A DNA stretch of 29,739 nucleotides from IMG/VR virus record IMGVR_UViG_3300021960_007761, positions 1 to 29,739 of that record, one strand, 5' to 3'. The translations under genes and the position numbers were made by a program. Of this stretch, positions 1,519 through 26,772 are shown in pieces. How positions within the stretch are numbered: position 1 is the first letter of the stretch; every line of letters starts with the position of its first letter. Below the pieces are notes generated by a model, which saw nothing but the letters and a program-made list of their open reading frames with translations, was not told where the DNA came from and made no database searches. This stretch comes from a virus.

Positions 1519-1526
1519 TATTTAGA
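1519..1526 (-). promoter_or_regulatory. Probable late promoter TCTAAATA for the lysozyme operon
   Basis: TCTAAATA on the minus strand differs from the T4 late promoter TATAAATA at one base. It lies directly after the terminator U-tract and about 80 nt before the lysozyme ATG, so transcripts would carry the structured leader at 1445-1511. Confidence 0.45.
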
Positions 1527-1554
1527 AAAAAAAGGGGAGACTTGTATTCTCCCC
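1526..1554 (-). terminator. Intrinsic terminator just downstream of the 1558-1586 promoter
   Basis: On the minus strand GGGGAGA (1548-1554) pairs with TCTCCCC (1534-1540) around a 7-nt loop and is followed by eight T residues (1526-1533). It ends transcripts from the peroxiredoxin gene. It also lies in the first ~25 nt of any transcript from the promoter at 1558-1586. Confidence 0.85.
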
Positions 1555-1557
1555 AAA

Positions 1558-1586
1558 ATTATAACAAATTTTTTGTCCTTTGTCAA
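1558..1586 (-). promoter_or_regulatory. Canonical sigma70 promoter, TTGACA-17-TATAAT
   Basis: Perfect -35 (1581-1586) and -10 (1558-1563) hexamers with a 17-bp spacer. The TGA stop of the peroxiredoxin gene (1583-1585) lies within TTGACA. The predicted start is about 1551, at the base of the terminator hairpin, which is an unusual arrangement. Confidence 0.75.
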
Positions 1587-2762: not shown

Positions 2763-2957
2763 TCAGAAGACGCCGAAGTAAAGATTGCCAGTCAGAGCAT
2801 AAGAGAGGAATCCTGCGACGATACCCATCATTGCCCAGCGTCCATTGGTGCGCTCTTTAACCATGTTAGGAGACAGCATCCCGTAATTCTCATAGTACAT
2901 TACGGGTTCTTTGGCAAACATATTCTGTTGCCCATGTTCATTAGTTGTTACAGTCAT
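2763..2957 (-). CDS. hli: High-light-inducible protein, 64 aa
   Basis: Single-helix chlorophyll-binding protein. ERTNGRWAMMGIVAGF (35-50) holds the ExxNGRxAMxG core, followed by LSYALTGNLY. A polar N-terminal extension of about 34 residues precedes the helix. I start it at the ATG at 2957. A longer frame from a TTG at 2996 is ruled out because it would run through the -10 box (2985-2990) of its own promoter, upstream of the transcript start. It should support photosystem repair in the infected host. Confidence 0.93.
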   Translation of the reverse strand: MTVTTNEHGQQNMFAKEPVMYYENYGMLSPNMVKERTNGRWAMMGIVAGFLSYALTGNLYFGVF

Positions 2958-2984: not shown

Positions 2985-3013
2985 ATTATATAGCAAATAT
3001 AAAGGGGCGTCAA
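2985..3013 (-). promoter_or_regulatory. Sigma70 promoter for hli, TTGACG-17-TATAAT, inside a terminator
   Basis: The -35 TTGACG (3008-3013) occupies the loop and first arm base of the terminator hairpin at 3004-3018. The terminator's T-rich tail lies in the 17-bp spacer. The -10 is TATAAT at 2985-2990. Confidence 0.75.
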
Positions 3014-3018
3014 GCCCC
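2995..3018 (-). terminator. Intrinsic terminator after the 45-aa membrane protein gene
   Basis: GGGGC (3014-3018) pairs with GCCCC (3004-3008) around the loop TTGAC, followed by TTTATATTT. The loop doubles as the -35 box of the hli promoter. Confidence 0.7.
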
Positions 3019-3051
3019 CTGTGTTTCGGTTTCCCGACATATTAAGTATAA

Positions 3052-25774: not shown

Positions 25775-25800
25775 GAAAAATGAAAACTCATATAGTATGT

Positions 25801-25829
25801 ATTATACAAAAAAAGACGGTTGTAGTCAA
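25801..25829 (-). promoter_or_regulatory. Sigma70 promoter of the glycan island, TTGACT-17-TATAAT
   Basis: -35 TTGACT (25824-25829) lies across the 5' arm and loop of the terminator hairpin, the T7 tail forms part of the 17-bp spacer, and -10 TATAAT is at 25801-25806. It is the only strong promoter I find for the 22-kb operon. Confidence 0.75.
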
Positions 25830-25834
25830 CCGTC
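25808..25834 (-). terminator. Intrinsic terminator upstream of the glycan island
   Basis: GACGGTTG (25827-25834) pairs with CAACCGTC (25815-25822) around a 4-nt loop, followed by seven T residues (25808-25814). It ends transcripts from the small-gene region and shares sequence with the island promoter. Confidence 0.88.
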
Positions 25835-25856
25835 TCTATAAGGTCTTTCATGCACG

Positions 25857-25941: not shown

Positions 25942-26145
25942 TCAAATGTTGATTGGAATTTTTCTGTTGATCTGTCTAATTAATTCGTCAACCTTCGCTT
26001 CCAGTTCTGCGATTCTTTTAGCATCACCACCACCCCCATTACAAGGAGTGTGTGCTTTTGCTTCCAGCACTTGAAGACGCTTTTCAATTTCACTTGAAAT
26101 TTTTGGACTATTATTAGAACCAGTATTTGTTCCTTTAGTTGCCAT
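25942..26145 (-). CDS. Hypothetical coiled-coil protein, 67 aa
   Basis: A polar Ser/Asn/Thr N-terminus leads into two heptad-type helices, SSEIEKRLQVLEAKAH (17-32) and AKRIAELEAKVDELIRQI (42-59), joined by a PCNGGGG linker. Similar short coiled-coil proteins occur in cyanophages but I know no function. No ribosome site is visible. A TAAATA late-like element lies about 26 nt upstream (around 26172-26177). Its 3' UTR carries the tandem hairpins and the terminator. Confidence 0.7.
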   Translation of the reverse strand: MATKGTNTGSNNSPKISSEIEKRLQVLEAKAHTPCNGGGGDAKRIAELEAKVDELIRQINRKIPINI

Positions 26146-26166: not shown

Positions 26167-26259
26167 AAGATATTTAGTTTTAAGGGGTCGTTTGACTCCA
26201 CCACCTAGTTTTACGAACTAGGAAACGCGAGGGTCTATTGACCATCCCGACCAGGGTTT
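26167..26259 (-). promoter_or_regulatory. Leader region with hairpin and weak late-type box
   Basis: Between the 82-aa and 67-aa genes, CCTAGTT and AACTAGG form a perfect 7-bp stem with a 5-nt loop (about 26205-26223), and GGTC-AATA-GACC forms a smaller one. ACTAAATA near 26171-26178 is a weak match to the late promoter. No coding frame is convincing here. Confidence 0.35.
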
Positions 26260-26508
26260 TTAGAGACTCTCCATGTCTTCATCGTCCCTCACATAGCAAG
26301 GAACTCTGTCTGGATCTAACCACTTCGCATACTCAATGTCTTCCATAGCAGTAGTACATTGTAGACCATTATCAAAAAGATAAATGTCATTCCAGCGTTT
26401 GGTGTATTCGTTTTGTTTTTGCATACGGTAATCAGGTTTACCGTTGATCTCTAGAATACCTGCTTCAATGAAGCGATATCCTTCACGTTCAAAAAGAACT
26501 TTGGTCAT
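26260..26508 (-). CDS. Hypothetical acidic protein, 82 aa
   Basis: A soluble, acidic protein with many aromatics (FEREGYRF, RWNDIYLFDNG, EYAKWLDPDRVPCYVRDDED). No signal, membrane segment or known motif. The ATG overlaps the previous stop as ATGA (26505-26508), so it is translated with the 71-aa gene. It falls in the early small-gene region of cyanophages, where host-takeover proteins are common, but its role is unknown. Confidence 0.7.
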   Translation of the reverse strand: MTKVLFEREGYRFIEAGILEINGKPDYRMQKQNEYTKRWNDIYLFDNGLQCTTAMEDIEYAKWLDPDRVPCYVRDDEDMESL

Positions 26509-26742: not shown

Positions 26743-26772
26743 ATTATAAGGGTTTGACAGGGGTTCTGTCAA
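26743..26772 (-). promoter_or_regulatory. Sigma70 promoter TTGACA-18-TATAAT directly after a tRNA
   Basis: -35 TTGACA (26767-26772) starts two bases after the tRNA 3' end and is one arm of an inverted repeat, TTGACAG-AACCC-CTGTCAA. -10 TATAAT is at 26743-26748. Confidence 0.7.

Follow-up and report, generated by a model that had tools for sequence, protein, structure and literature searches.

The glycan island of this phage contig is headed by a compact block that directly follows a wcaG RNA, and this block is likely to be an intrinsic terminator interlocked with a sigma-70 early promoter, a wcaG-linked unit that ends or gates incoming transcription and starts transcription free of wcaG. It lies on the minus strand at 25,801-25,837 of the window (the whole 29,739-nt stretch analysed, from IMG/VR record IMGVR_UViG_3300021960_007761), where the minus-strand letters read AGAGACGGTTGACTACAACCGTCTTTTTTTGTATAAT. 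The predicted terminator (25,812-25,837, minus strand; AGAGACGGTTG ACTA CAACCGTCTTT TTTT) consists of 11 pairs, a 4-nt loop and T7. Its hairpin folds as RNA at -14.6 kcal/mol (z -5.5), and stem covariation in relatives points the same way. The nested promoter (25,801-25,829, minus strand) matches the consensus at 11 of 12 positions and is conserved in position among relatives. Its -35, TTGACT (25,829-25,824), has TTG in the hairpin arm and ACT in the loop, the 17-bp spacer contains the T-tract, and the -10, TATAAT, follows at 25,806-25,801, from which a transcription start near 25,794 would be expected. All the parts named in a preliminary description of this DNA are present, on the minus strand, which it did not specify, and its proposal that one block serves as both terminator and promoter at the head of the island agrees with where those parts are located. 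Given 12 minus-strand promoters of at least 11/12 in 29.7 kb and about five terminators, an arithmetic estimate predicts roughly 0.04 promoter/terminator overlaps in the window. Two are seen, and the nested layout is real and more than chance.

The contig is similar to T4-like phages of Synechococcus, among them S-SM2, Bellamy and S-T4. Directly 5' of the terminator, and overlooked in the preliminary description, is a wcaG RNA (RF01761; 25,846-25,944, minus strand), which Rfam matches over its full length (model positions 1-98) at 98.2 bits against a gathering score of 42. Only 8 nt separate its 3' end from the terminator hairpin. The order is thus wcaG, then the terminator together with the gene's own promoter, then a nucleotide-sugar epimerase (PF01370; 24,707-25,774, minus strand), the first gene of the glycan island. 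A sugar isomerase and then a nucleotidyltransferase come after it, within a long run of minus-strand genes. On the other side of wcaG, the stop codon of a 67-aa ORF of unknown function (phrog_35121; 25,942-26,145, minus strand) touches the start of the RNA. Upstream of this ORF is a late-type motif, ACTAAATA (26,171-26,178, minus strand). The motif was checked in S-SM2, where [AC]TAAATA shows enrichment ahead of virion genes, usually at 20-45 nt from the start codon, with 60 occurrences on the gene-rich strand versus 6 on the other. Further upstream is a divergent second wcaG-like RNA (26,190-26,280, minus strand), whose 38.7 bits fall short of the gathering score of 42. Relatives often carry variant units, marked by GGTCGGGA and GTGGTGGAGTC motifs, in tandem immediately ahead of wcaG. 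They lie no more than 60 nt away in 47 of 84 cases, and some loci have a small gene separating the units. These divergent units are possibly an undescribed class of companion RNA.

The upstream unit has an early promoter of its own, TTGACA-18-TATAAT, at 26,743-26,772 (minus strand). It matches the consensus at 12/12 positions and has counterparts in S-SM2 (12/12) and Bellamy (11/12). This promoter lies behind a tRNA-Met, and its -35 also falls in an inverted repeat, TTGACAG AACCC CTGTCAA, here without a T-tract. The suggestion that the two units are mutually exclusive in time finds no support, since this consensus promoter belongs to the upstream unit. Both units should be on early because both have consensus early promoters. 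Occlusion of the nested promoter by a polymerase paused at the U-tract, which had been offered as the cause, would be geometrically possible.

Recurrence was assessed in two sets of relatives: the regions upstream of 80 epimerase relatives and 120 loci fetched by a wcaG 14-mer, the latter sampled blind to terminators. Among the 60 wcaG RNAs recognised in the 14-mer set, 54 are closely followed by a terminator, and at 44 the hairpin holds a -35 whose -10 is exactly 17 bp away. The epimerase set gave 41 wcaG RNAs, 40 with a terminator and 35 with a nested promoter. The distance from wcaG to the terminator is 6-20 nt in 85 of 93 cases. Of the 94 terminators in the two sets together, 77 have a -10 located exactly 8 nt past the point where the T-tract starts. 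The module precedes epimerase, cytidylyltransferase, cupin and other genes, and genes of several families lie upstream of it. Parts of the module also occur apart in relatives. For instance, the promoter is found without a hairpin at three loci, and at three others (L064, L068 and L309) the terminator behind wcaG is followed at once by a late motif (ATAAATA or CTAAATA) with no early promoter. A terminator followed by a promoter in tandem was seen at only three loci, and S-T4 carries a nested block without wcaG. The separate occurrence of the parts indicates that the terminator and the promoter have distinct functions, even though the two are usually interlocked. In S-SM2, which has 11-15 terminators, strong nested sites stand before the epimerase (143541) and hli03 (167141, 12/12). 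At three further loci (L294, L315 and L235), a G+C-rich hairpin with TGACC in its loop and no T-tract lies 3' of wcaG, and what follows it reads as a tRNA-like gene.

The stem itself has been kept by pairing, not by letters. Arms diverge widely among relatives (AGACGG, GGTGGG, GAGGAG, GGAGAG, AGATCC and others), while 98.5% and 100% of cells are paired. Compensatory changes are frequent, with 52 and 20 cells altered on both sides, a level reached in 0 of 500 shuffles, and every slide of the pairing partner leaves only 27-67% paired. The columns of the -35, the U-tract and the -10 stay fixed while the arms covary. Three main -35 types are found in the relatives, TTGCAT, TTGACA and TTTACA, and the commonest, TTGCAT, has only 3 of 6 consensus bases. 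The anatomy of the block, its conservation, its compensatory changes and the separate occurrence of its parts can all be read from the sequences. Two other identities were considered for these elements. The inverted repeat is unlikely to be an operator for a sequence-specific protein, as its arms vary while pairing is kept. A T4 MotA-type middle box was dropped as an explanation of TTGCAT, as its spacing to the -10 does not fit.

The window has a second nested hairpin and promoter at 2,985-3,020 (minus strand), identified from sequence, fold and relatives, just before a high-light-inducible protein gene (hli, phrog_178; 2,763-2,957, minus strand). Its hairpin (3,020-3,002; AGGGGGC-TTGAC-GCCCCTT) encloses the -35, TTGACG (3,013-3,008), and a 17-bp spacer leads to the -10, TATAAT (2,990-2,985). 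The preliminary description had called this the same design. The order of parts and their recurrence bear that out, whereas the hairpin has a weaker fold (-11.3 kcal/mol, z -2.5) and the T-run is broken: the tail reads TTTATATTT, while many relatives have TTTATTTTT. Termination at this second site is less certain because of its weaker hairpin and the lack of a clean T-run. Among distinct hli relatives, 32 of 57 combine a promoter of at least 9/12 with a hairpin that covers the -35, and in a few others the -35 falls at the 3' arm. A layout of this kind had been expected to recur in related phages, and it does so for both sites in the window. Elsewhere in the window, at 1,519-1,586 (minus strand), a terminator (GGGGAGAATACAAGTCTCCCC, T8) lies 3 nt past a 12/12 early promoter, so placed that the start point would fall in its 5' arm, and a CTAAATA late-type motif comes directly after the T-tract. 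Judged from its letters, this may be another register of the composite idea.

A wider scan used the pattern TTGAC, ten bases, T6, two bases, TATAAT, and a site was counted as nested when it formed a hairpin of at least 6 pairs. IMG/VR contains at least 118 distinct pattern sites, some of them interrelated, and 22 of the 118 listed are nested versus 0.42 expected. In bacterial and archaeal genomes, 1 of the 120 listed pattern sites is nested versus 0.48 expected. Both scans are samples and not censuses, and among the matches listed viral contigs often show the nested layout, whereas bacterial genomes rarely do. Lactococcus phage WRP3, which is not T4-like, carries two nested terminator/promoter sites, which suggests that the layout has arisen independently.

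T4-like phages have composite promoter-terminator cassettes called PeSLs (promoter-early stem-loops), reportedly described by Arbiol in 2010 and Comeau in 2014. Like a PeSL, the present block joins a sigma-70 early promoter and a stem-loop in one intergenic cassette, the terminator being predicted from fold and U-tract. It also lies between genes of the hyperplastic region of a T4-like phage and recurs before different genes. PeSLs reportedly mediate recombination in which blocks of genes are exchanged, and on that point the loci show the module ahead of several kinds of gene and behind several gene families. Direct reading of RB49 gave registers in which the -10 is in the stem loop or a terminator and promoter stand in tandem, and a strict automatic scan of that genome returned only weak nested cases. 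In contrast, the hairpin here contains the -35, the spacer is taken up by the U-tract with the -10 after it, and a wcaG RNA is coupled to the cassette. Identity with PeSLs of the RB49 kind was rejected on this difference in register. The passages of PMC4503421 consulted note an early promoter and stem loops in cyanophage S-PM2 and describe them as far less dense there than PeSLs are in other T4-like phages. Literature searches by phrase for overlapping promoter-terminators returned nothing useful. PeSL-type composites are already known, and the register with the -35 in the hairpin and the coupling to wcaG appear to be a new variant when set against PeSLs as represented in titles and in those passages.

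The RNA itself fits its family, matching the model over its whole length with a high score and lying upstream of a wcaG-type epimerase gene. Passages of PMC2864571, PMC9602691 and PMC9964418 present wcaG as a cis-regulator of downstream genes, and those main-text passages make no mention of a terminator or promoter behind it. Here, unlike in that published description, both lie between wcaG and the gene. The ensemble also resembles the leader of a transcription-attenuating riboswitch, in that a structured RNA is followed by a close intrinsic terminator and then by biosynthetic genes. It differs in that no anti-terminator was found and in that the leader would be bypassed by a second promoter set within the terminator.

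Activity of the terminator and of the promoter is inferred, as would be any influence of wcaG on read-through. Transcription from the upstream genes would traverse wcaG, form the hairpin and stop at the terminator, to a degree perhaps set by wcaG. RNA begun at the nested promoter would start past the U-tract and carry neither hairpin nor wcaG. With the -35 in the hairpin and the start point beyond the U-tract, the island's own promoter would be insulated from its own terminator, and in many marine viruses of cyanobacteria much of the RNA of the sugar-making genes probably lacks wcaG, the element assumed to control them.

What wcaG does in such an arrangement can be read in several ways. It could be a 3'-end element of the upstream RNA, serving in protection, in processing or as an RNA product, with the terminator merely ending the unit and the link to glycan genes reflecting the site of insertion. 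This is a reasonable possibility, though we do not lean towards it. It would account for the start of wcaG coinciding with the upstream stop codon in the window, in Bellamy and in several other loci, for the downstream gene having its own promoter, and for wcaG plus terminator at L064 and L068 preceding a small non-glycan ORF with a late motif. However, the genes upstream of wcaG belong to several families while those downstream are mostly glycan genes, and at two loci that lack the terminator wcaG stands where a 5' leader would, 14-16 nt ahead of a start codon. The same bias in downstream genes, together with the 6-20 nt gap, favors a true riboswitch or attenuator, in which wcaG and the terminator sense a metabolite or signal and switch read-through while the nested promoter supplies a fixed basal or early output. 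Weinberg et al. rated wcaG a possible riboswitch (in the part of PMC2864571 consulted). We nevertheless regard this reading as rather unlikely, as the terminator arms vary freely while wcaG is constant. In an arm-swap duplex test, each arm paired with its own wcaG plus spacer at -9.63 kcal/mol and swapped arms at -9.46 (difference -0.17, s.e. 0.28), so that no anti-terminator pairing beyond that of swapped arms was detected between wcaG and the terminator arms. Mutually exclusive aptamer and terminator structures were not found, and a switch that works without direct pairing is compatible with these results.

Doubtful, in our estimate, is a reading in which wcaG gates read-through at the terminator and the built-in promoter acts as a bypass, so that one operon could be reached both by a route under sensing and by one free of it, the two packed into a single cassette of about 150 bp that moves between glycan islands. 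The TTGAC or TTGCAT loop might, finally, be kept for RNA reasons, such as loop pairing or protein binding together with wcaG, and not as a -35. A few wcaG loci, such as L294, have a T-less hairpin with a TTGACC loop and no good -10, as this would predict. We give the idea very little credence, as hli, S-T4 and phage WRP3 show the layout, TATAAT at 17 bp included, in the absence of wcaG, and relatives that lack the hairpin still keep the -35 and -10.

An interlocked terminator and early promoter behind wcaG, the arrangement that we favor, has consequences for how this RNA is studied. wcaG is an orphan riboswitch candidate that has been assumed to control the gene that follows. If a terminator carrying that gene's own promoter stands behind most copies of this RNA, wcaG belongs to the upstream transcript, and reporters in which wcaG and the stretch next to it are fused to a gene would be confounded by the nested promoter. 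For the phages themselves, the nested layout would offer a compact means of insulating neighbouring units in small genomes, since RNA that reads through would make the hairpin and self-initiated RNA would not.
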